Assembly (NCBI RefSeq): GCF_014596515.1 | Contig: NZ_MSJQ01000428.1 | Span: 1 to 64,000, forward strand | Length of the DNA: 64,000 nt | Direction: 5' to 3' | Source of the DNA: Streptomyces sp. CBMA156 | GTDB taxonomy: Bacteria > Actinomycetota > Actinomycetes > Streptomycetales > Streptomycetaceae | Shown here: piece after piece, positions 40,039-59,120 of the stretch | Numbering within the stretch: the stretch's first letter is position 1 | Layout: each line of letters starts with the position of its first letter | Notes under the pieces: model-generated | What the model was told of the DNA's origin: nothing | What the model saw: the letters and a program-made list of their open reading frames with translations, nothing else | The model's database searches: none | Translations under genes and position numbers: made by a program

Positions 40039-40848
40039 GTGACAGACATGCAGGTGAACCCGTCCTTCCGGCTCGTGTACGTCCCGGGCGTGATCCCCGG
40101 CAAATGGGTCCGGGTCTGGAGCGAGCGGCTCCCGGACGTTCCGCTGGAACTTCTCGCGGTCGAGTCCGGCGACGGCGAACGGACCCTGCGCGAGGGCGGC
40201 GCGGACGCCGGGCTGGTCCGGCTGCCGGTCGACAAGGACGTGCTGAGCGCGATCCCGCTCTACACCGAGACCACCGTCGTGGTCTTCCCCAAGGACCACT
40301 GGCTCGCCGCCGCCGAGGAGGTCGCGCCGGCCGACCTCGCCGAGGAGGTGGTCTTCCACCCGCTCGACGACACCCTCGGCCTCACCGCCGACACCCTGCC
40401 GGGGCGCCCCGCCCTCGCGCGCCCGGACAGCACGGCGGACGCGATCGAGCTGGTCGCGGCGAACGTCGGCGTGCTCCTGGTGCCGCAGTCCCTGGCCCGG
40501 CTGCACCACCGCAAGGACCTCACCTACCGGCCGGTGGCGGAGGCGCCGCAGTCCCAGGTGGCGCTGTCCTGGCCGCAGGAGCGGACGACGGACCTGGTGG
40601 AGGAGTTCATCGGGATCGTCCGGGGCCGTACGGTCAACAGCTCGCGCGGGCGCGGGGCCGGGCAGGCGACGCCCGAGGCGCAGCCGAAGAAGGCGGCGGC
40701 CGGGCGGGGCAAGCCGCAGCAGAAGGCCGGCGGGCAGCGGAGCGGTGCGCAGAAGGCCGGCGGGCAGAAGCCGGGCGGGGCGAAGGCCGGGGGAGCCAAG
40801 GCCGGCGGGCGGGGCGCGGCGGCCCGGCGCGGCAGGCCGAAGCGGTGA
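40039..40848 (+). CDS. LysR-type effector domain without HTH, basic KAGG-rich tail
   Basis: A 269-aa protein. Residues about 8-200 match the periplasmic-binding-like effector domain of LysR regulators (LVYVPGVIPGKWVRVW, LRLPVDKD-type core, TTVVVFPKDHWLA), but the N-terminal DNA-binding helix-turn-helix is absent. The C-terminal 70 residues are a Lys/Gly/Ala-rich tail of repeated KAGG/QKAGG units ending RRGRPKR, resembling histone-H1-like or AT-hook sequence. GTG 40039 lies 6 nt after TAGCCT and lacks a ribosome binding site, so it is probably leaderless. The 58-bp gap to the divergent DUF5997 gene suggests shared control and perhaps a complex. Confidence 0.85.
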   Translation: MTDMQVNPSFRLVYVPGVIPGKWVRVWSERLPDVPLELLAVESGDGERTLREGGADAGLVRLPVDKDVLSAIPLYTETTVVVFPKDHWLAAAEEVAPADLAEEVVFHPLDDTLGLTADTLPGRPALARPDSTADAIELVAANVGVLLVPQSLARLHHRKDLTYRPVAEAPQSQVALSWPQERTTDLVEEFIGIVRGRTVNSSRGRGAGQATPEAQPKKAAAGRGKPQQKAGGQRSGAQKAGGQKPGGAKAGGAKAGGRGAAARRGRPKR

Positions 40849-44031: not shown

Positions 44032-45435
44032 ATGACCGACGAGCGGGTCCACGCGTTCGGCGACGACGCCCTGGGCACCTACGACGCGGTGGCGCTGGCC
44101 GCGCTGGTGCGGGCCGGCGCGGTCAACCCCCGGGAGCTGGTCGGCGCCGCCGTCGACCGGGCCGCGCGGGTGGACGGCACGCTGCTGCCCGTCGCCCACG
44201 CCTCGTACGACAAGCCGCAGATCAGCCGGGAGGGCATCGGCGGTCCGCTGTGGGGCGTGCCGACGTACCTCAAGGACAACGTGGACCTGCGCGGCCTGCC
44301 GACCGCGATGGGCAGCGAGGCCTACCGCGCCCGCCCGGCCCGCCGCAACGCGCCCTTCACCGACCAGTTCCTCGCCACCGGCCTCGCCGTGCTCGGCAAG
44401 ACCAGACTGCCCGAGTTCGGCCTCAACGCCTCCACCGAGTTCGCCACCGCCCAGCCGGTGCGCAACCCGTGGAAGCCCTCGCACTCGGCCGGCGCCTCCT
44501 CGGGCGGCGCGGCGGCGCTGGTGGCCTCCGGCGTGGTGCCGATCGCGCACGCCAACGACGGCGGCGGCTCGATCCGCATCCCGGCGGCCTGCTGCGGCCT
44601 GGTCGGGCTCAAGCCCACCCGGGGCCGGCTGGTCACCAACGCCCAGAGCGGCAAACTGCCGGTCGACCTGGTCACCGACGGCGTGCTGACCCGCTCGGTG
44701 CGCGACACCGCCGCCTTCTTCGCCGCCGCCGAGCGGCACCACCGCAACCCCGGACTGCCCCCGCTCGGCCTGGTCGAGGGCCCGGGGGCGCGGCGGCTGC
44801 GGATCGGCCTGGTGGTGGACTCGCCGATCGCCAGGACCGACGGGCCGACCCGGCGGGCCGTCGAGGAGACCGCCGCCCGGCTGGAGGCGATGGGCCACCG
44901 GGTCGAGCCCACCGCGCTGCCCTTCGGCGAGGAGTTCTCCCGCGACTTCGTCACCTACTGGGGCTACATCGCCTGGGCCATCGCGGCCACCGGCCGGCTG
45001 CTGCTCGACCCGAGCTTCCGGGCCGGGAAGCTGGACGGCCTGACCACCGGGCTGCGCCGCCGGTTCCGGACGGAGTTCCCGCAGACCCCCGGCGTGCTGC
45101 GGCGGCTGCGCCGGGCGGAGGGCGTGTACGCGCGGATCTTCCGCGGCCACGACGTGATTCTCTCCCCGGTGCTCGCCCACACCGCCCCGCCGATCGGGCA
45201 CCTGAGCCCCAACGTGGACTTCGACGAGCTGATGGACCGGCTGATGCGCTACGTCGCCTTCACGCCGGTCAACAACGTGACCGGCGGCCCCGGCCTCGCG
45301 CTGCCGGCGGGCTCGGCGCCCGGCGGACTGCCGGTCGGGGTGCACCTGTCGGCGGCGCACGGGCAGGAGCGGCTGCTGCTGGAGCTGGCGTTCGCGCTGG
45401 AGGCCGAGCGGCCCTGGCGGCGGATCCAGGACTGA
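44032..45435 (+). CDS. Amidase signature family hydrolase
   Basis: A 467-aa amidase. The Ser-cisSer-Lys triad is visible: Lys81 in YLKDN, the Ser pair 156/157 in GASSGG, and nucleophile Ser180 in GGGSIRIPAACCG. The AS domain core spans about 65-240. The long C-terminal half (YWGYIAWAIAATGRLLL, VILSPVLAHTAPPIG) is typical for fatty-amide/6-aminohexanoate-type members. ATG 44032 has GGGGAG, itself part of a 15-bp duplication. The control region suggests a TetR-type regulator. Substrate unknown. Confidence 0.9.
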   Translation: MTDERVHAFGDDALGTYDAVALAALVRAGAVNPRELVGAAVDRAARVDGTLLPVAHASYDKPQISREGIGGPLWGVPTYLKDNVDLRGLPTAMGSEAYRARPARRNAPFTDQFLATGLAVLGKTRLPEFGLNASTEFATAQPVRNPWKPSHSAGASSGGAAALVASGVVPIAHANDGGGSIRIPAACCGLVGLKPTRGRLVTNAQSGKLPVDLVTDGVLTRSVRDTAAFFAAAERHHRNPGLPPLGLVEGPGARRLRIGLVVDSPIARTDGPTRRAVEETAARLEAMGHRVEPTALPFGEEFSRDFVTYWGYIAWAIAATGRLLLDPSFRAGKLDGLTTGLRRRFRTEFPQTPGVLRRLRRAEGVYARIFRGHDVILSPVLAHTAPPIGHLSPNVDFDELMDRLMRYVAFTPVNNVTGGPGLALPAGSAPGGLPVGVHLSAAHGQERLLLELAFALEAERPWRRIQD

Positions 45436-45560
45436 ACCCGGCGGCGTTCCCCGCCGACCCGGGGCCGCCCGTCGGCCGTCGCGCGGACGCCGGGCCGGCC
45501 GGTGGCGGCATTCGCCGCCATAACGGGCCCTCGCACAGTGACCGTTCAGTATCCGGCGAT

Positions 45561-45610
45561 TATGTCAATTGCGGAAACATACCCCCGCTTATGTCAGCCT
45601 CCGAAACATA
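45561..45610. promoter_or_regulatory. Two tandem TATGT-N11-ACATA dyads
   Basis: Copy 1 has TATGT 45561-45565 and ACATA 45577-45581. Copy 2 has TATGT 45590-45594 and ACATA 45606-45610. The copies also share TATGTCA and CGGAAACATA/CGAAACATA, are 29 bp apart, and sit in unusually AT-rich DNA about 65-115 bp upstream of the TTGACA box of the biosynthetic operon. They look like a double operator for a dedicated activator or repressor not encoded in the operon itself. Confidence 0.65.
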
Positions 45611-45674
45611 AAGCGAACCCCGAGAGGCGCCTTGAACTGCGCTGATTTCCCAATCGGTAACCCGCTGGAAAGGG

Positions 45675-45702
45675 TTGACACCATTAGTTGGTCTAGTCCA
45701 AC
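45675..45702 (+). promoter_or_regulatory. TTGACA promoter element with DasR-box-like dyad
   Basis: TTGACA (45675-45680) is a consensus -35. Directly downstream, GTTGGTCTAGTCCAAC (45687-45702) is an almost perfect palindrome that shares the TGGTCTAG core of the DasR operator (ACTGGTCTAGACCAGT consensus, from memory; 11 of 16 positions agree). Placed over the -10 region it could block initiation. A GlcNAc-responsive repressor is one option; another GntR protein is another. The remaining 45436-45946 leader holds no supported gene. Confidence 0.5.
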
Positions 45703-45946
45703 GTAGGGGAGCGCGGTTCGGCTGAGGCTGATGAGGGGTGAGAGGCCTTGCCGAGCGGGTGAGTTGGCCCCCTGACGTGGTGCTGCTCCGCGCCCGTTGG
45801 CAGGGCGAGAAGGAGCGCATGCGGACGGCCCCCCGGCCCGCGCGCCGTATTCCCGTCGCGGCCGGAGCCCGGCCGCCCACCCGCCGTGCCCGCGCCCGGC
45901 GCATGAGGAAGCGCTGCACCGACCACGAACCACGGAGTGACCGCCC

Positions 45947-47056
45947 ATGCCGAGCCCAGCCGAACACGCCGACGGACCAGCCGGGGAATACCTGTACCGG
46001 GCCGCCTCGGAGCGCCCCTACTTCAGCGCCGACACCGAGAGCTATCTCGCCCCCACCGCCCTGCGCGAGATCCGCAAGAAGCACCCGCTGCGCGTGCTCT
46101 CCGAGGAGGACCTCGCGTTCTGGCAGACCTACGGCTACGTGGTGGTGAAGGAGGCGATCCCGGCCGGTGCCGCGCGCCGACTGCTCGACTTCGCCTGGGA
46201 GTTCCAGGGCCTGTCGCCGGACCGCCCCGAGGACTGGTACCGGGAGCGCGAGTACCGCGACGAACTCGACCGGCACCTGCACATCTACGGCTTCGTCGAG
46301 GCCTACCACCACCAGCTGATCTGGGACAGCCGCCAGGCGCAGCGCGTCTACGACGCCTTCGTGGACGTGTGGGACTGCGAGGAGCTCTGGGTCACCCTCG
46401 ACCGGCTCAACCTCAACCCGCCGAACGTGCGCAACCGCGACCGCGCGCTGATCGAGCCCACCGACCGCGGCTTCGACATCGAGCTGCACTGGGACGTCGA
46501 CACCACTCGGGGCATCCTGCCGCAGCGCGTCCAGGGCATCATCGCGCTCGACGACACCGCCCCCGACCACGGCGGCTTCCAGTGCGACCCGGAGCTGTTC
46601 CGCCGCTTCAACGAGTGGCAGGCCGCCCAGCCCGCCGGCCGCGACCCGATCCGCCCGGACGTCGACCGGGACGAGTTCCCCGTCGTGCGGCCCGAGTTGA
46701 AGGCCGGTGACCTGCTGATCTGGAACGGCCTGCTCGCCCACGGCGTCGAGCGCAACACCTCCGAGAACGGCGTGCGCGCGGTGCAGTACCTGTCGATGAT
46801 GCCCGCGCTGGAGGAGTCCGAGAAGCTGCGCCGCTCCCGGGTGGAGTCCTGGCGCACGCTCGCCACGCCGGACTGGAACCGCACCCTGGTCGGCGACGCC
46901 GACCGGCCCGAGGCGCAGCGCTACCCGACCGCCGAACTCACCGAGCTGGGGGAGAAGCTGCTCGGCCTGCGGTCCTGGAGCGGCAAGCCCTTCGAGGAAC
47001 ACGCGACGGACCGGCGGAGTGCCACGGGGGAGCGGGAATGCGCGACGTCTGCCTGA
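45947..47056 (+). CDS. Phytanoyl-CoA dioxygenase (PhyH) family Fe(II)/2OG oxygenase
   Basis: A 369-aa non-haem iron oxygenase, likely hydroxylating a small-molecule substrate. The facial triad is seen as His181-Trp-Asp183 (HWDVDTT) and the distal His265 (LLAHGVERN), with a family-typical Arg further on. The N terminus (RVLSEEDLAFWQTYGYVVVKEAI) is the usual PhyH opening. It is the first gene of an operon; the next gene starts 19 bp before its stop. The start ATG 45947 follows GAGTGACC. PhyH proteins in biosynthetic operons act on amino acids, nucleotides or sugars; the substrate here is unknown. Confidence 0.88.
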   Translation: MPSPAEHADGPAGEYLYRAASERPYFSADTESYLAPTALREIRKKHPLRVLSEEDLAFWQTYGYVVVKEAIPAGAARRLLDFAWEFQGLSPDRPEDWYREREYRDELDRHLHIYGFVEAYHHQLIWDSRQAQRVYDAFVDVWDCEELWVTLDRLNLNPPNVRNRDRALIEPTDRGFDIELHWDVDTTRGILPQRVQGIIALDDTAPDHGGFQCDPELFRRFNEWQAAQPAGRDPIRPDVDRDEFPVVRPELKAGDLLIWNGLLAHGVERNTSENGVRAVQYLSMMPALEESEKLRRSRVESWRTLATPDWNRTLVGDADRPEAQRYPTAELTELGEKLLGLRSWSGKPFEEHATDRRSATGERECATSA

Positions 47057-48351
47057 CCCTGCCCACCAACCGCGAGTGCGCGGACACCATCACCGCGATC
47101 GGCGCCGAAGCCGCCTTCGCCGTACGGCGGTTCGGCGTCCGGGTGCACCTGCTGGTGCTGGACTCCGCCGGCCCCGCGGCCAGAGCCGGACACGCCGCGG
47201 CCCTCGCCGCCCTGCCCGCCGCCGACGGCGTGCTGACCCACCACCTGGACGAGGGCGCCCAGCGCGCCTTCCTGCGCGAGGTGATCGAGCGCTCCGGCGC
47301 GGCCGGCCGGGACCGGCTGCTGGAGCTGATGCTGCCCGACGCCGTCTCCTACGGTGCCTGCACCAACCGGGCGTTCCTGCTGGCCGCCGCACTCGGCTGC
47401 GATTCGGTGCACCGCCGCGACTCCGACAGCCGCTACCAACTGCTCGACGGCGAACCGGTGTTCCCGATGGAGCACGAGCTGGCCGCGCTCGGGCTGAAGG
47501 CCGCCGACGCGGCCGCCGCCGTCACCGAGAACAACCTCGACCCGGTGCACGCGGACAAGAGGGTCGCCCTGGTCGGCGCCTCCTTCGTCGGCGAACTCTC
47601 CGTCGACGTCGGCGAGATCCGCGAGCTCGACCCCGAGGCCTACCACGACGTGGTCGCGCTCTGGGCGCCCACCGGCGCGAGTGAGCGGGAGAAGCTCGAC
47701 CTCGTCGCCGACTCCTTCACCGGCGGCGGCACCGAGCCGTTCACCGCCGACCGCGCCGTGCTCGACCTGCCCGACATCTGGCGCATCGACATGTGCAACA
47801 TCGGCCTGGACCGCGAGGTGTACGAGAGGGTCCCGCTGCCGCCCGCCACCGACACCATCGGCAGCGACTACTTCCTGCACCACCTGGTGCGCGACGCGAC
47901 CCTGCCGGGCGTCACCCACAACCGCCACATCGTCAACTACCACACCCCGGAACGGCGTACCGGCCCCGGCTTCACCGCCTACCAGCTGCGCTACGCCAAG
48001 TTCCTGCTCTCCATGCTCTACCTCTACCCGGTCTACTCCGAGATGGAGGCCGCAGGCGAGGCCCTGCTGGACGAACAGCACCGCGTCCGCCCCGGGCTGA
48101 TCGCGGACTCCGCCCGTCGCAGCGCCGCGACGGACCGCGCGGAGAACCACCGCAGGCTCGCCGAACTCGACCGCTGCTACCGGCGGCTCGGCGGGAAGTA
48201 CGCCGAGTTCGCCGACCACCTGGCGCCCCGAAGGGCGTGCCTGCTCGACGAAGCGCAGGCGGACATCGAGGACTTCGCAGTGCTGATCGACGCGTGGGGC
48301 CCGCTGGTGCGGGCGAGCAGGGCCACCCCCGCCGACCGGCTGCCGCGCTAG
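47038..48351 (+). CDS. DUF6271-like protein, possible GT-A-like enzyme
   Basis: A 437-aa soluble protein. The start MRDVCLTLPTNRECADTI and the Rossmann-like VRVHLLVLDSAG resemble the actinobacterial DUF6271 family as I remember it. SVHRRDSDSRYQ contains a DxD-like acidic patch, and SDYFLHHLVR with NYHTPERRTG looks conserved, so a nucleotide-sugar-transferase-like fold is conceivable but unproven. A His- and Asp-rich pattern would suit metal binding. ATG 47038 has GGGGGAG nine bases upstream and overlaps the dioxygenase gene by 19 bp, implying coupling. It is the least understood member of the operon. Confidence 0.78.
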   Translation: MRDVCLTLPTNRECADTITAIGAEAAFAVRRFGVRVHLLVLDSAGPAARAGHAAALAALPAADGVLTHHLDEGAQRAFLREVIERSGAAGRDRLLELMLPDAVSYGACTNRAFLLAAALGCDSVHRRDSDSRYQLLDGEPVFPMEHELAALGLKAADAAAAVTENNLDPVHADKRVALVGASFVGELSVDVGEIRELDPEAYHDVVALWAPTGASEREKLDLVADSFTGGGTEPFTADRAVLDLPDIWRIDMCNIGLDREVYERVPLPPATDTIGSDYFLHHLVRDATLPGVTHNRHIVNYHTPERRTGPGFTAYQLRYAKFLLSMLYLYPVYSEMEAAGEALLDEQHRVRPGLIADSARRSAATDRAENHRRLAELDRCYRRLGGKYAEFADHLAPRRACLLDEAQADIEDFAVLIDAWGPLVRASRATPADRLPR

Positions 48352-48369: not shown

Positions 48370-49647
48370 GTGACACACCAGACCGCCATCAAGACCACGC
48401 ACCGTGCCCCGTCCGTCTCCGTGGTGCACACCGAAGCGCCCCGCCGTGACGAGCACGACCGGACCGCGCTGCGCGCCGCGCTCGCCGCGGCCACCGACGA
48501 CCGGATCATCTACGACCTCGACGGCATCGGCCGGCAGTACGCCGCGCTCCGCGCCGAACTGCCCGGCGTGGCCGTCCGGTTCGCGATGAAGGCCTGCCCG
48601 GTGGACGAGGTGCTCGACCACCTCGCCGGGCTCGGCTCCGGCTTCGACGCGGCCAGCCCGCAGGAGATCGCCCAGGCCCTGCGCACCGGGGTCGCGCCCG
48701 AACTGATCCACTACGGCAACACCATCAAGTCCGACCGCAACATCGCCGAGGCCCACCGGCTGGGCGTGCGGGACTTCGCCACCGACAGCCCGGAGGACGT
48801 CGCGGCGATCGCCGAACACGCCCCGGGATCACGGGTGTTCTGCCGGATCGCGACCACCGGCGAGGGCGCACTGTGGGGCCTGAGCCACAAGTTCGGCTGC
48901 TCGCCCGAGGACGCGCTGCGGGTGCTCGGCGAAGCCCGTGCCGCCGGGCTCGTCCCGTCCGGGCTGTCCGTCCACGTCGGCTCCCAGCAGATGACCGCCG
49001 AGGCCTGGGGCGCCGCGATGGACTCGCTGGCCGCCGTGCTGGAGGCGCTCAACTGGCGCGGCATCACCCCGACCACGATCAACCTCGGCGGCGGCCTGCC
49101 CGCCCTCGGCGTCCTCGACCGGCACGGGAGCCCGCTCGAACCGCCGCTGGAGAAGATGTTCACGGCGATCCGCGAGGGCATGGAGCGGCTGCGCGCCGTC
49201 AGCGCCGCGCCGCTGGAGTTCCTGGTGGAGCCGGGGCGCCACCTGGTGGCCGACCACGGCGCGATCCGCGCCCACGTCGCCCGGCTCACCTCACGCCACG
49301 GGCTCGACGACGCCAGGCAGGACTGGCTCTACCTCAGCTGCGGCAAGTTCAACGGCCTGTACGAGATGGACCAGCTCCAGTACCGGCTGGAGTTCCCCAC
49401 CCACCCCGGCGGCCGGTTCGTCAACGCCGTGGTGGCGGGACCGACCTGCGACAGCGACGACGCGTACGCGCAGGAGGGCGGTCTGGTGCGGGTCCCGCAC
49501 GCGATCGGCTCCGGCGACCCGGTCTGGATCCACTCCTGCGGCGCGTACGCCACGGCCTACGCCACCCGCGGGTTCAACGGCTTCGCGCCGCTGCCGTACA
49601 GCTGCATCGGCGGCGACGGCGCGGGCCGACAGGGAGGCACCGCATGA
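48370..49647 (+). CDS. Fold-III PLP decarboxylase (ornithine/DAP/arginine decarboxylase-like)
   Basis: A 425-aa alanine-racemase-fold decarboxylase. PLP Lys74 in RFAMKAC, HVGSQ, the Gly-rich INLGGGLPA phosphate loop, EPGRH and the catalytic Cys360 in GPTCDSDD are visible. GPTCDS-D is the pattern of ornithine- and related basic-amino-acid decarboxylases. It should convert a diamino acid, possibly already hydroxylated, to an amine. GTG 48370 follows GGGAG and lies 18 bp after the upstream stop. The stop overlaps the next start (ATGA). Confidence 0.9.
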   Translation: MTHQTAIKTTHRAPSVSVVHTEAPRRDEHDRTALRAALAAATDDRIIYDLDGIGRQYAALRAELPGVAVRFAMKACPVDEVLDHLAGLGSGFDAASPQEIAQALRTGVAPELIHYGNTIKSDRNIAEAHRLGVRDFATDSPEDVAAIAEHAPGSRVFCRIATTGEGALWGLSHKFGCSPEDALRVLGEARAAGLVPSGLSVHVGSQQMTAEAWGAAMDSLAAVLEALNWRGITPTTINLGGGLPALGVLDRHGSPLEPPLEKMFTAIREGMERLRAVSAAPLEFLVEPGRHLVADHGAIRAHVARLTSRHGLDDARQDWLYLSCGKFNGLYEMDQLQYRLEFPTHPGGRFVNAVVAGPTCDSDDAYAQEGGLVRVPHAIGSGDPVWIHSCGAYATAYATRGFNGFAPLPYSCIGGDGAGRQGGTA

Positions 49648-50255
49648 CCGGCACGCTCGTCGACGCTCCGACCGGACCGCGCATCCGGCTGCTCCGGGAG
49701 GAGGACTGGGACGGCGTGGTCGCGCTGGAGGAGCGCGCCTACGCCGCCAGCGGCCTGTCCGAGGGGTACGAGGCGCTGCGGTCCCGGCACCGCGCCTCGC
49801 CCGACACCTGCTTCGTGCTGGAACACGCGGGCGGCCTGGGCGGCTACCTGCTCGCCCTGCCGTACCCGCTGTTCCGCTGCCCCGACCTCAGCCGCAGCGA
49901 GGACGGGGACGGGGACGGGGACGGCGGCCCGGGCGAGCGGCCGGCCAACATGCACGCGCACGACCTGGTGATCTCCGAGGACCTGCGCGGCCGGGGCCTG
50001 TCCCTGCGGATGCTCCGGCACCTGGAGGACACCGCCAGGGCGGCCGGCTACCGGACCGTCTCGCTGGTCGCCGTCCGCGGCTCGCACGTGCTGTGGACCC
50101 CGCTGGGCTACCGCGCCCGGCCCGAGATCGACCTCCCCGAGAGCTACGGCACCCGGGCGGTCTACATGGCGATGCCGCTGGACCCCGTCCCGGCCGCGCC
50201 GCCGCACTCCACCGGCCCGCTCCCCGGGCCGTACTCCAGAGCCGAAGTGGGCTGA
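49644..50255 (+). CDS. GNAT N-acetyltransferase
   Basis: A 203-aa GNAT with an Asp/Gly-repeat loop (SEDGDGDGDGG, about 87-97) from repeated GGGGAC. The acetyl-CoA loop is LVISEDLRGRGLSLRMLRHLE (about 108-128), with the final strand GYRTVSLVAVRGSHVLWTPLGY. It overlaps the decarboxylase gene by 4 bp. In this operon it would acylate the amine made by the decarboxylase, either as a biosynthetic step or as self-protection. Confidence 0.85.
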   Translation: MTGTLVDAPTGPRIRLLREEDWDGVVALEERAYAASGLSEGYEALRSRHRASPDTCFVLEHAGGLGGYLLALPYPLFRCPDLSRSEDGDGDGDGGPGERPANMHAHDLVISEDLRGRGLSLRMLRHLEDTARAAGYRTVSLVAVRGSHVLWTPLGYRARPEIDLPESYGTRAVYMAMPLDPVPAAPPHSTGPLPGPYSRAEVG

Positions 50256-50260
50256 TACCG

Positions 50261-51469
50261 ATGTCCCCCGTTCGCGACGACTTCCGCCGGTCCCAAGTGG
50301 CCATCGGCGCACTGTTCTTCGTCCTCGGATTCCAGTACGCGACCTGGGTCTCCCGGGTGCCGGCGCTCAAGGCCAGGCTCGACCTGGGCGAGGCCCAGAT
50401 CGGCCTGCTGCTGATGACCTGCGGAATCGGCGCGGCGGTGTCCTTCCCCCTGGTCGCGGTGCTGATGCGGCGGATCGGTTCCCGGCTGCTCTCGGTGCTG
50501 TCCGCCCTCGCCCTCGGCGTGATCCTGCTCGCGCTGTCGGTGGTGCCGAACTACCCGGTGACGCTGCTGGTGCTGTTCTTCGACGGCGTCGCGGTCGGCT
50601 GCCTGAACGTCGCGATGAACGCCCAGGGCGCCGCGCTGGAGGCCCGCTTCGAGCGGACCACGATGTCCCGGCTGCACGCCACCTTCAGCGCCGGCTCGCT
50701 GCTCGCCGCCCTGCTGGCCTCGGGCGTCAACGCCTTCACCGGCACCCTCGCCGTGCACTTCGGGCTGGCCGCGGCGCTGCTCGCCGTCCTGGTGGTGGCC
50801 GCCAGGTCCGGACTGCTGGCGGACGGCCCGGACGCGGCCGCCGCACCGGAGGAGAAGAAGCAGCGCCGCGGATTCGTGCTGCCGACCGTCGCGACCCTCT
50901 GGATGGGCCTGGCGATGGTGTTCGGCACCGTCACCGAGGGCGCCATGAACGACTGGTCGGCGCTCTACCTCAAGGACTACGTGCACGCCGGCGCCGGGCT
51001 CGCCCCGCTGGGCATCGCGGTGGTCTCGGTGATGATGGTCTTCGCCCGGATCTTCGCCGACGGCTGGCGCACCCGCTTCGGCGACGCCCGGATCGTGCGC
51101 ACCGGCAGCCTGCTGGCCGGCCTCGGACTCGCCCTGGCGCTGGCGGTCGGCGGCGTGGCCCCGACCCTGATCGGCTTCGCCTGCGTCGGCCTCGGCGTCG
51201 CCGCGGTGACCCCGTGCGTCTACGTCGCCGCCGCCCGGCAGGGCGCCGACGCCCTCTCGCTGGTCGCCGCCATGGGCACCACGGGACTGCTGGCCGGCCC
51301 CGCCGTGATCGGCTTCATCGCCGGCGCCACCAGCCTGCTCTGGGGCATGGCCGCCGTCGCCGCCTCGGCCGCGATCGTCTCCCTGTGCGCCACCCGGATC
51401 AGCTGGCCCGGGCAGGAGGCCCCCGCCGCCCCCGCCGCCGACCCCCTGCTCGCCGCCGACCCGACCTGA
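50261..51469 (+). CDS. MFS transporter, probable exporter
   Basis: A 402-aa major-facilitator protein with 12 predicted helices and motifs of the YbjJ/fucose-permease-like group (FFVLGFQYATWVSRVPALKA near the start, DGVAVGCLNVAMNAQG in helix 4, and TEGAMNDWSALYLKDY after the central loop). The Lys/Arg-rich central loop (EEKKQRRG, about 200) separates two six-helix halves. It starts 5 bp after the GNAT stop. As the last gene of the operon it probably exports the product. A long stem-loop follows. Confidence 0.9.
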   Translation: MSPVRDDFRRSQVAIGALFFVLGFQYATWVSRVPALKARLDLGEAQIGLLLMTCGIGAAVSFPLVAVLMRRIGSRLLSVLSALALGVILLALSVVPNYPVTLLVLFFDGVAVGCLNVAMNAQGAALEARFERTTMSRLHATFSAGSLLAALLASGVNAFTGTLAVHFGLAAALLAVLVVAARSGLLADGPDAAAAPEEKKQRRGFVLPTVATLWMGLAMVFGTVTEGAMNDWSALYLKDYVHAGAGLAPLGIAVVSVMMVFARIFADGWRTRFGDARIVRTGSLLAGLGLALALAVGGVAPTLIGFACVGLGVAAVTPCVYVAAARQGADALSLVAAMGTTGLLAGPAVIGFIAGATSLLWGMAAVAASAAIVSLCATRISWPGQEAPAAPAADPLLAADPT

Positions 51470-56097: not shown

Positions 56098-56670
56098 GTG
56101 GAGATCGTCACCGCCGTCGCCTACTCCGAGGTCCACGACGCCTACCTGCGGGACCACCCGGTGGAGCGCGCCCACGAGGCGAACAGCAACGGGTACGCCG
56201 AGGAGAACATCGACCGCGTCGACCGCGACCTCGGAAGCTGGTGGCGGATCCGGCTCTCCCGGGCGGACGTCCTGGGCGTCGTGCTGCCCTGGCACCTCAG
56301 CGAGGGCGGGGAGCTCGAACTGGTCCCGCGCTCAGGGCTGACGGTGGGCGAGGCGGCCGAGCGGATCCGTGCGGCCGGGGCCGGCTGGGCCGCCGCCAAC
56401 CCGGTCTGTGCGGCGAAGGTCCGGCTGCTGCGCGGGGAGCCGTTCACGCCGCTGCTCCTCAGCACCAGCCCGGTCGACCACCCCCACTACGCGGGCCTGG
56501 CCGGCCGGAGCGGCCTGATCCACCTCGACGGCCTGCACCGCATGCTGGCCTGGGAGTTGGCCGGTCGGCTGCCCGAACGGGCGCTGCTGGACGGTTACCT
56601 GGTGGGCGACCCCGGGGTGGTGGCGTCCCGGCCGGCCGGAGCGGGCCGGAGGCGGGACGGGCCGGCGTGA
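56098..56670 (+). CDS. DUF6309-like protein with ParB-like HxR region
   Basis: A 190-aa protein. HPVERAHEANSNGYAEENI, VVLPWHLSEGGELELVP and the segment LIHLDGLHRMLAWELAGRLP match the DUF6309 family as I remember it. DGLHRMLAW is reminiscent of the DGHHR motif of ParB/sulfiredoxin-fold domains, which bind nucleotides. The GTG start at 56098 has GAGGAG seven bases upstream. It lies in an apparent operon with a small repeat ORF and a TauD-type dioxygenase. Role unknown. Confidence 0.72.
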   Translation: MEIVTAVAYSEVHDAYLRDHPVERAHEANSNGYAEENIDRVDRDLGSWWRIRLSRADVLGVVLPWHLSEGGELELVPRSGLTVGEAAERIRAAGAGWAAANPVCAAKVRLLRGEPFTPLLLSTSPVDHPHYAGLAGRSGLIHLDGLHRMLAWELAGRLPERALLDGYLVGDPGVVASRPAGAGRRRDGPA

Positions 56671-56773
56671 CCTCCGCTGCGGGAGTGGCCGGTGGAGAAC
56701 GCGGCCGGACGGATCGACGAGGGCCTGGGGCCGCGGACGGCGGCCGGCAGCGAGCGGAGAGGACAACGACGCG

Positions 56774-57628
56774 GTGGCCGAAATCGGCTGGAGCAGCCTG
56801 GAGTTGGAGGCCCGCAGGGAGCTGTGGTCGCTCTCGCTGGAGGAGCCTGACCGGCGGCTGCTCCGGGCCGACCTGCGGGCCGGGGCCTGGGACGCCGCCG
56901 GGGAGGTGCGGGCCCGGCTGCGCGCGTTCGTCCGGGACGCCGCCGAATCGGTCGGTGTCACCCACGTGGGTGGCCTGGTGGACCCGGCCCGCCCGGAGGA
57001 GGAGATCACCGGGGCGCTGTCCTTCCTGCTGCGGGACTTCGGCCGGATCGTCCCGCAGAACGGGCGCGGCGACCTCACCGCCGTGCTGCGCGACCAAGAC
57101 GGCGACGGCACCACCGAACTCGGCTTCCACAGCGACACCTGCGACCTGGTGGTTCTGCTCTGTCTGCGCCCCGCCTTCGACGGCGGCGGGCTGACCAGGC
57201 TGGCGAGCGCCCGGCACGTCCACGACCTGATCCAGCGGGAGCGGCCGGACGCGCTGGCCACGCTCCGCGAGGACTGGACCTTCGACCGCACCGGCCGGCC
57301 CGGTCCGCAGCGGGTGGTCACCCCGATCCTGTACGACCGCGAGGACGGCACGGTCGGCTGCTACTACCAGACGCGTACGGTCCGTTCGTCCCCCGACCGC
57401 GGCGGCCCCGAGCTGACGGACCGGCAGTGGGAGGCGCTGGGGGTGCTGGACGAGGCGCTCTACCGGCCGGAGATCGCCTTCGGGCTGCCGATGGGCCCGG
57501 GGGACCTGCTGGTCATCCGCAACAGCCGGGTGCTGCACGGGCGCTCGCCGTTCGTCGACGAACCGGGGCGGTACGCCCGGCGGATGCTGCGGGTCTGGGT
57601 GAACGAAGGGGCGGAGTGGGCGCGCTGA
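56774..57628 (+). CDS. TauD/TfdA-type Fe(II)/2OG dioxygenase
   Basis: A 284-aa oxygenase. The triad is His119-Ser-Asp121 (GFHSDTCDL) and His255 (VLHGRSPF), followed by the conserved Arg pair in RRMLRVWV that binds 2-oxoglutarate. VLLCLRPAFDGGGLTRLAS is typical of clavaminate-synthase-like members that hydroxylate amino acids. GTG 56774 has GGAGAGGA about 11 bases upstream. It sits 103 bp after the DUF6309-like gene in the same direction. Substrate unknown; a metabolite or a peptide side chain are both possible. Confidence 0.88.
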   Translation: MAEIGWSSLELEARRELWSLSLEEPDRRLLRADLRAGAWDAAGEVRARLRAFVRDAAESVGVTHVGGLVDPARPEEEITGALSFLLRDFGRIVPQNGRGDLTAVLRDQDGDGTTELGFHSDTCDLVVLLCLRPAFDGGGLTRLASARHVHDLIQRERPDALATLREDWTFDRTGRPGPQRVVTPILYDREDGTVGCYYQTRTVRSSPDRGGPELTDRQWEALGVLDEALYRPEIAFGLPMGPGDLLVIRNSRVLHGRSPFVDEPGRYARRMLRVWVNEGAEWAR

Positions 57629-57749
57629 GCGCGGTGAGGGCGGGCGGCGGCGGTGCCGACCCGGTCCGCCCGCGGGGGCGGTGGCGGCCCGCGGACATCG
57701 GGGCCGGACCGTTGTCATCCGTTTCGGGCGGGTGCGACGTCCTGGGGGT

Positions 57750-59120
57750 ATGACCCACTGCCCAGCCCGACCCGACACCGGTGCCCGAGACCACGGCGAC
57801 GCCCGACCCGACGGCGACGCCCGACCCGACGGCGACGCCCGAGACGACCGCCGGGGGACCGGGCCGGGCCGGGGCGCCGCACCTCCGCACCCGGTCGATC
57901 CGGTGGTCCTGGCCCTGGTCGCGGTGTCCGCGGTGGCGGTCGCGCTGCTGGTCCGGGCCCTGCTGCTGAAGTACGAGTCGTCGGACTGGCACTACTTCCT
58001 CGACCCCTGGTACCGGTACATCAAGGCGCAGGGCGGATTCCACGCCCTCGGCGACATCGGGTTCGCGGACTACAACGTCCCCTACCTGTACCTGATGGCC
58101 GCGCTCGGCTACCTGCCGGTCCCGGCGCTGGCGGCCGTCAAGTGCCTGTCCGTCCTCTTCGACCTGGCTCTGGCGTACTACACCCACCGCATCGTCTCGC
58201 TGCGGTGGCCGCACCGGCCCTGGCGGCCGCTCGCGGCGGCGGTGACCGTGCTGTTCCTCCCCACGGTCGTGACCAACAGCGGGTGGTGGGCCCAGGCCGA
58301 CGCGATCTTCACCGTCTTCCTGCTCGGAGGCGTCCACCACCTCCTGCGCGACCGGCCCTGGTGGTCCTGCGCGTTCTTCGGGATGGCCCTGGCCTTCAAG
58401 CTCCAGGCGGTCTTCCTGTTCCCGCTGCTGCTCGTCGTCGTCCTGTGCGGGCGGGTGCCGTGGCGGAGCCTGCTGGCCGTCCCGGCCGCGTACCTGGCGC
58501 TCGACGTCCCCGCCCTGCTGCTCGGCGCCGACCCCTGGCCGCTGCTGACGGTGTACGCCCGGCAGACCGGGACCTACCAGGACCTCACGCTCAACGCGCC
58601 GTCGGTCTACCAGTTCGTCTCGGTGCCGGCGGGGGAGGAGGGCCCGGTGCGCAGGGCGGGCGTCCTGGCCGCGGGCGTGCTGGTGCTGATGCTGACCGGC
58701 CTGGTGGTCAGGGCCGTACGGCGCACCGAGGGCGCGGCGGAAGCGGAAGGGGGCGGGGGCGGGCGGGCCGGGCTCACCGGGACCGGGATCCTGCTGGCGG
58801 CCACCGTCTTCGCGATCGCGGTGCCGTTCCTGCTGCCGTCCATGCACGAGCGCTACTTCTACGCTGCGGACGTCCTCAGCGTGCTCGTCGCGTTCCAGCT
58901 CCCGCGGCAGCTCTGGTACCTGCCGGTCCTGGTCCAGCTCTCGTCCTTCGGCAGCTACCTCAAGTTCATCGCGCCCGGCGTGGCGCCGTACCTGTCGATG
59001 CCGGCCCACGGCGTGCTGATGCTGCTGGCGCTGATCACCGTGCTCCGGGCCGCCGCCCGGGAGTTCGGCGCGGTGCGGGGCCCGGGCGGCGGAACCGGCG
59101 CGCCGGCGGACGCCCGCTGA
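57750..59120 (+). CDS. GT-C membrane glycosyltransferase (mannosyltransferase-like)
   Basis: About 456 aa with some ten transmembrane helices. An acidic first-loop motif occurs in SSDWHYFLDPWYRYI (about 72-86), with DYNVPYLYLMAALGYLP next, as in polyprenol-phosphate-sugar-dependent GT-C enzymes. FLPSMHERYFYAADV in a late loop is a common GT87/GT39-like signature. The N-terminal 40 residues are disordered and contain GDARPD repeats from an 18-bp tandem repeat. ATG 57750 has only a poorly spaced GGGGG, so the start is uncertain. It may work with the upstream dioxygenase genes or alone. Confidence 0.8.
   Translation: MTHCPARPDTGARDHGDARPDGDARPDGDARDDRRGTGPGRGAAPPHPVDPVVLALVAVSAVAVALLVRALLLKYESSDWHYFLDPWYRYIKAQGGFHALGDIGFADYNVPYLYLMAALGYLPVPALAAVKCLSVLFDLALAYYTHRIVSLRWPHRPWRPLAAAVTVLFLPTVVTNSGWWAQADAIFTVFLLGGVHHLLRDRPWWSCAFFGMALAFKLQAVFLFPLLLVVVLCGRVPWRSLLAVPAAYLALDVPALLLGADPWPLLTVYARQTGTYQDLTLNAPSVYQFVSVPAGEEGPVRRAGVLAAGVLVLMLTGLVVRAVRRTEGAAEAEGGGGGRAGLTGTGILLAATVFAIAVPFLLPSMHERYFYAADVLSVLVAFQLPRQLWYLPVLVQLSSFGSYLKFIAPGVAPYLSMPAHGVLMLLALITVLRAAAREFGAVRGPGGGTGAPADAR
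57795..57830 (+). repeat. 18-bp tandem repeat x2 in the glycosyltransferase leader
   Basis: GGCGACGCCCGACCCGAC is repeated exactly at 57795-57812 and 57813-57830, with a partial third copy. It encodes GDARPD units. Confidence 0.9.

Follow-up and report, generated by a model that had tools for sequence, protein, structure and literature searches.

SARP operators are direct heptamer repeats with a spacing of 11 or 22 bp that adjoin the -10 element. A genome-wide ChIP study of DasR in S. coelicolor gave the dre consensus A(G/C)TGGTCTAGACCA(G/C)T and listed cttggtctagtccata at dasR/dasA among the dre sites; in EMSA, S. coelicolor DasR bound the core TGGTCTAGTCCA, which lies at scr5239 (PMC4398421). 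The lys box of PltR, an LTTR, is a 22-bp palindromic T-N11-A box from which this regulator activates a biosynthetic operon (PMC3382589). Here, in a stretch of 64,000 nucleotides (64 kb, called the window), we describe two near-identical 21-base mirror-image sites in a 29-bp register, to which a gene-control protein very probably docks and which stand upstream of a PhyH-DUF6271-decarboxylase operon and its conserved downstream transporter gene. The sites and genes are the following.

45561-45581, no strand assigned: dyad 1, TATGT-N11-ACATA, TATGTCAATTGCGGAAACATA, consensus TTATGTCAATT-N3-GAAACATAC
45590-45610, no strand assigned: dyad 2, TATGT-N11-ACATA, TATGTCAGCCTCCGAAACATA
45589-45611, no strand assigned: extended form of dyad 2, TTATGTC-N6-CGAAACATAA, the stronger and better conserved copy
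45947-47056, plus strand: PhyH-family (Fe/2-oxoglutarate-type) dioxygenase, first gene of the operon (Pfam PF05721, E 6e-11)
47038-48351, plus strand: DUF6271 protein (Pfam PF19787, E 1e-220)
48370-49647, plus strand: PLP-dependent amino-acid decarboxylase (Pfam PF02784)
50093-51469, plus strand: MFS transporter, conserved downstream gene (Pfam PF07690, synteny)

An earlier note on this DNA had reported two TATGT-N11-ACATA dyads 29 bp apart in AT-rich DNA, and we found both exactly where it had placed them, in a neighbourhood with an A+T content of 52% vs 25% window-wide. The element common to both copies, for which a spacer of 5 to 7 bases had been allowed, is TATGTCA-N6-GAAACATA, with a spacer of exactly 6. 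The motif is rare: these two dyads are the only exact TATGT-N11-ACATA matches in the whole 9.17-Mb genome (about 0.09 expected by base composition) and the sole matches in the 64-kb window when one mismatch is tolerated (0.01 expected), none of 100 shuffled windows contained two dyad matches, and ACATA occurs on the plus strand of the window just twice, both times inside the dyads. A genome scan for TTATGTC-N6-CGAAACATAA with up to 3 mismatches gave no further site, and at the same tolerance no second genomic target of the dyad motif, including a possible autoregulatory site, was found. A literature search returned no description of the motif.

The proposed check of whether the pair is conserved upstream of orthologous operons was run on 15 same-genus genomes, including the window's own, that have a close operon ortholog (DUF6271 about 79-100% identical), and in these 15 Kitasatospora genomes the dyad pair is indeed position-conserved before the PhyH-DUF6271-decarboxylase-MFS operon. 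In the alignment, TTATGTC and CGAAACATA of dyad 2 are invariant in 15/15 genomes while the bases at the centre vary, and this retention of half-sites around variable centres suggests a dimer contacting two half-sites. Dyad 1 is visible in 14 of the 15 genomes, the sequence of the remaining one being too short there, and is degenerate in three relatives (G012/L034, G052/L037, G063/L035); such unequal conservation of the two copies suggests a primary and an auxiliary site. The inter-dyad register is 29 bp, vs 31 bp in one genome (L043). The start of dyad 2 keeps a near-constant distance of 82-85 bp to the promoter block despite indels elsewhere, and the dyad centres lie at about -111 (dyad 2) and -140 (dyad 1) relative to a start predicted near 45711, which by inference favours an activator over a repressor. 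The region between dyad 2 and the -35 element has a mean identity of about 0.85 in the same alignment, so that the intergenic region is fairly conserved throughout and conservation alone does not single out the dyads. Like SARP heptamer repeats, the dyads are repeated short elements before an actinobacterial biosynthetic operon; unlike them, they have inverted half-sites and a 29-bp register and stand far upstream, and no direct heptamers with the 11- or 22-bp spacing were found beside the -10 element, which bears out the earlier statement that the spacing is not that of SARP sites.

The pair is confined to one Kitasatospora lineage and to one chromosomal site, a limit that the earlier reading lacked. 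Among 70 genomes of the genus, the motif is present at this locus in 17, with unrelated single matches in two more (G030, G067), and it is absent from the other DUF6271 operons compared. Among 84,980 bacterial and archaeal species scanned, the exact pair turned up in Kitasatospora-group contigs and in three unrelated records, from Arthrobacter, an alphaproteobacterial MAG and a clostridial MAG, whose inner sequences differ. The Arthrobacter record (L100, 7269-7319) has paired 21-bp sites like TATGTTGTG-N3-CACGACATA, with the same outer pattern and a different inner one. A recurring Streptomyces match, TTCTGTCTCGATACGAAACATAC, reads as the start of a coding sequence and is not an operator.

Between the dyads and the operon, the 15-genome alignment showed a further conserved stretch and a core promoter, composed as follows.

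45633-45663, plus strand: conserved stretch TGAACTGCGCTGATTTCCCAATCGGTAACC, between dyad 2 and the -35 element
45675-45680, plus strand: TTGACA, putative -35 element, invariant in 15 genomes
45687-45702, no strand assigned: GTTGGTCTAGTCCAAC, DasR dre-like site between -35 and -10, near-invariant in 15 genomes
45699-45704, plus strand: CAACGT, candidate weak -10 element proposed from the sequence, with an 18-bp spacer from TTGACA

The first of these could be an additional binding site, perhaps for another factor. The promoter block AGGGTTGACACCATTAGTTGGTCTAGTCCAACGTA (45671-45706) is nearly invariant, with 32 of its 36 columns unchanged, and combines TTGACA with the palindrome TTGGTCTAGTCCAA (45688-45701), which lies between TTGACA and the likely -10 and matches the DasR dre. 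A sigma-70 consensus scan picked up neither TTGACA nor CAACGT and gave no promoter at this position, probably owing to the weak -10. TTGACA is also found in most distant DUF6271 operons, and the palindrome TTGGTCTAGTCCAA, unchanged or with 1-2 changes, also precedes distant DUF6271 operons, where it mostly follows a TTGAC(A/G) box, and occurs near a DUF6271 paralog in this genome; this holds for loci whose upstream DNA was read, though not for every one of them, several stretches being too short or without a match. The paralog, 55% identical, is on contig C181 of this genome (L052, 6203-7456), with TTGACA and GTGGTCTAGTCCA upstream. Farther downstream at the locus itself, the leader segment GGTGAGAGGCCTTGCC...GAGTTGGCC (45726-45772) is conserved, and the fold of the leader RNA does not surpass that of shuffled sequence, nor does it have an Rfam match.

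Moreover, the dre core is present in the same genome before two GH18 chitinase genes (L136, L145), one of these copies having a single mismatch outside the core, and before a polysaccharide deacetylase gene (L137). A SIS-domain gene also adjoins a dre-core site (L139). The site GTTGGTCTAGTCCAAC contains TGGTCTAGTCCA, the core that was bound in EMSA; this match and the occurrence of the same core before chitinase and deacetylase genes make it likely that DasR controls the operon through the core promoter and not through the dyads, neither of which contains TGGTCT or AGACCA. The locus thus resembles the dre promoters of the GntR/HutC-type regulator DasR in Streptomyces by virtue of its core promoter, and differs from them by a double dyad without dre similarity.

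We regard it as highly probable that the dyads are a functional operator of the operon. The earlier note had also read them as an operator, and this stands, since the pair is conserved before orthologous operons and is linked to the promoter of the operon; the dre-like site of the core promoter had been missed. Further, we think it likely, though less firmly so, that they form a tandem operator for a remote dimeric factor, most probably an activating one, which would act in combination with DasR at the core. Two dimers of a helix-turn-helix factor would probably sit in the PhyH-DUF6271-decarboxylase promoter side by side, at about -111 and -140, with dyad 2 as the primary and dyad 1 as the auxiliary site; the core promoter, with its TTGACA, dre-like palindrome and likely -10, would probably be repressed by DasR until amino-sugar signals release it, and the dyad-binding factor, most likely an activator, would add a second, lineage-specific input. 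From sequence we infer protein binding at the dyads, the dimeric state, activation, and the binding of DasR to dre in Kitasatospora. Several points sit less easily with this reading of a tandem activator operator: the far-upstream position fits activation or looping and proves neither, a single-target regulator encoded far off would be unusual, the genome holds no second target and not even an autoregulatory one, the 29-bp register (31 bp in L043) is not an integral number of helical turns, and the intergenic region is fairly conserved as a whole.

The same tandem arrangement and the near-constant promoter spacing would also suit an upstream silencer, at which two repressor dimers act by looping or jointly with a promoter repressor, tandem operators being common for cooperative repressors. 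We consider a silencer rather unlikely, because the dyads lie 80-115 bp before the -35 element and not over the promoter, and because the promoter already carries a repressor-type site, the dre.

As for the factor that reads the tandem operator, neither of the two local helix-turn-helix regulator genes co-varies with the dyads: G023, G042 and G004 (L042, L043, L083) have dyads but lack, at the locus, the MerR gene that adjoins the MFS gene, and G011 and G021 (L158, L161) have the TetR gene but no dyads. Therefore, the regulator is probably encoded elsewhere, away from the locus. The earlier suggestion of a remote or global factor is upheld in so far as no local regulator co-varies, but the one recognisable global regulator, DasR, would act at dre and not at the dyads. 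ECF or SigB promoters, GlnR and ArgR do not appear to fit the sequence of the dyads, and Lsr2 would suit AT-rich DNA but the dyads are too sequence-specific for it. Tentatively, we propose that a dedicated remote regulator reads the double dyad and joins DasR at one promoter, so that amino-sugar sensing and a second signal would together govern the making and export of an undescribed product.

Could this regulator be of the LysR type, with the dyads as the recognition and activation sites of one tetramer? T-N11-A is literally present within the interrupted dyad, twice, and the PltR box is likewise an interrupted palindrome of about 21-22 bp with T-N11-A before a biosynthetic operon. However, T-N11-A is a weakly specific criterion, the dyads consist of two widely separated 5-6-bp half-sites where the PltR type has 9-bp arms and a 4-bp gap, and they lie much further upstream of the promoter, with neither near -65 or -35. 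The usual adjacent or divergent LysR gene is also absent from the window operon and from the syntenic loci examined, and the nearest LysR-like protein (40039-40848) matches the LysR substrate-binding domain only, with no helix-turn-helix match. We thus judge a LysR-type reading improbable. The gene of that LysR-like protein adjoins a DUF5997 gene and is found in several relatives also.

In relatives, a divergent gene for a FUSC-like membrane protein (about 650 aa, the label being judged by eye and not by a Pfam scan) stands between the amidase gene and the dyads, which the earlier reading had likewise not taken into account, so we asked which gene owns the dyads. Were they an operator or promoter element of this FUSC-like exporter gene, the pair in the window would be a relic, as the window is without the gene (45433-45560) and has 0.5 kb there vs about 2.5 kb in relatives. 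In most relatives the dyads do lie in the divergent intergenic region between FUSC and operon, beginning some 45 bp before the FUSC start, and G004 (L083, 7542), whose operon has decayed to a PhyH fragment, retains FUSC and one dyad. However, six FUSC orthologs without an adjoining operon (G011, G021, G028, G043, G047, G007), 74-85% identical and with the FUSC leader CCAACNTACGGC largely kept, have no dyads, whereas the pair persists without FUSC both in the window and in G020, where FUSC, PhyH and DUF6271 are gone from the locus and the decarboxylase, the dre-like site and the two dyads remain. It follows that the dyads are part of the operon promoter, and ownership by FUSC, already largely refuted by this presence/absence pattern, is in our view very improbable. 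G011 and G021 represent an empty site, with the order P450/amidase-FUSC-PIG-L-VTT-TetR. The best match to FUSC in the window's own genome is a distant homolog (39%), and the close relative G040 has a 92% FUSC fragment on another contig.

The single dyad of G004 is a hybrid that resembles dyad 1 in its left half and dyad 2 in its right, as though the DNA separating the repeats had been lost. This suggestion of repeat recombination, together with the possibility that two direct copies 29 bp apart arose by duplication, is what speaks against a protein site and for a chance match, a relic of repeats or slippage, or an RNA hairpin, a reading that is scarcely credible given half-sites kept around diverged centres in 15 genomes, the rarity of the motif in window and genome, the lack of an Rfam match around the dyads and their position upstream of the promoter.

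The operon under this proposed composite promoter belongs to a DUF6271 operon family that is widespread in Streptomycetaceae, with DUF6271 matches in 73 of the 199 relatives searched. The closest solved relatives of the decarboxylase are lysine/ornithine decarboxylases (5gjm, E 3e-37), and a 446-bp gap separates its gene from that of the MFS transporter. For the DUF6271 protein, which is mentioned nowhere in the literature searched, no solved relative was found by sequence; in Foldseek, its low-confidence model (pLDDT 60) matched GT-A enzymes weakly (best E 7e-3), a resemblance with which the D-S-D motif of the protein agrees, and as a lead it is a possible GT-A-like glycosyltransferase. A modified amine (hydroxylated, glycosylated) is a possible product of the operon.

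Neither tandem palindromic operators nor dre promoters are new kinds of element; what is new is a lineage-restricted instance of them on an uncharacterised operon. Given the dre-like site of its core promoter, the operon could perhaps be switched on by chitin or N-acetylglucosamine, a simple way of searching for its product, and the double dyad is a compact probe with which its regulator could be fished out. In addition, the related strains supply natural controls in which the operon is lost, FUSC is lost, a single hybrid dyad remains or the site is empty. Elsewhere in the window (56098-59120), genes for DUF6309, a TauD-family dioxygenase and GT87 stand in a row beside a TetR gene and are possibly another small biosynthetic cluster.
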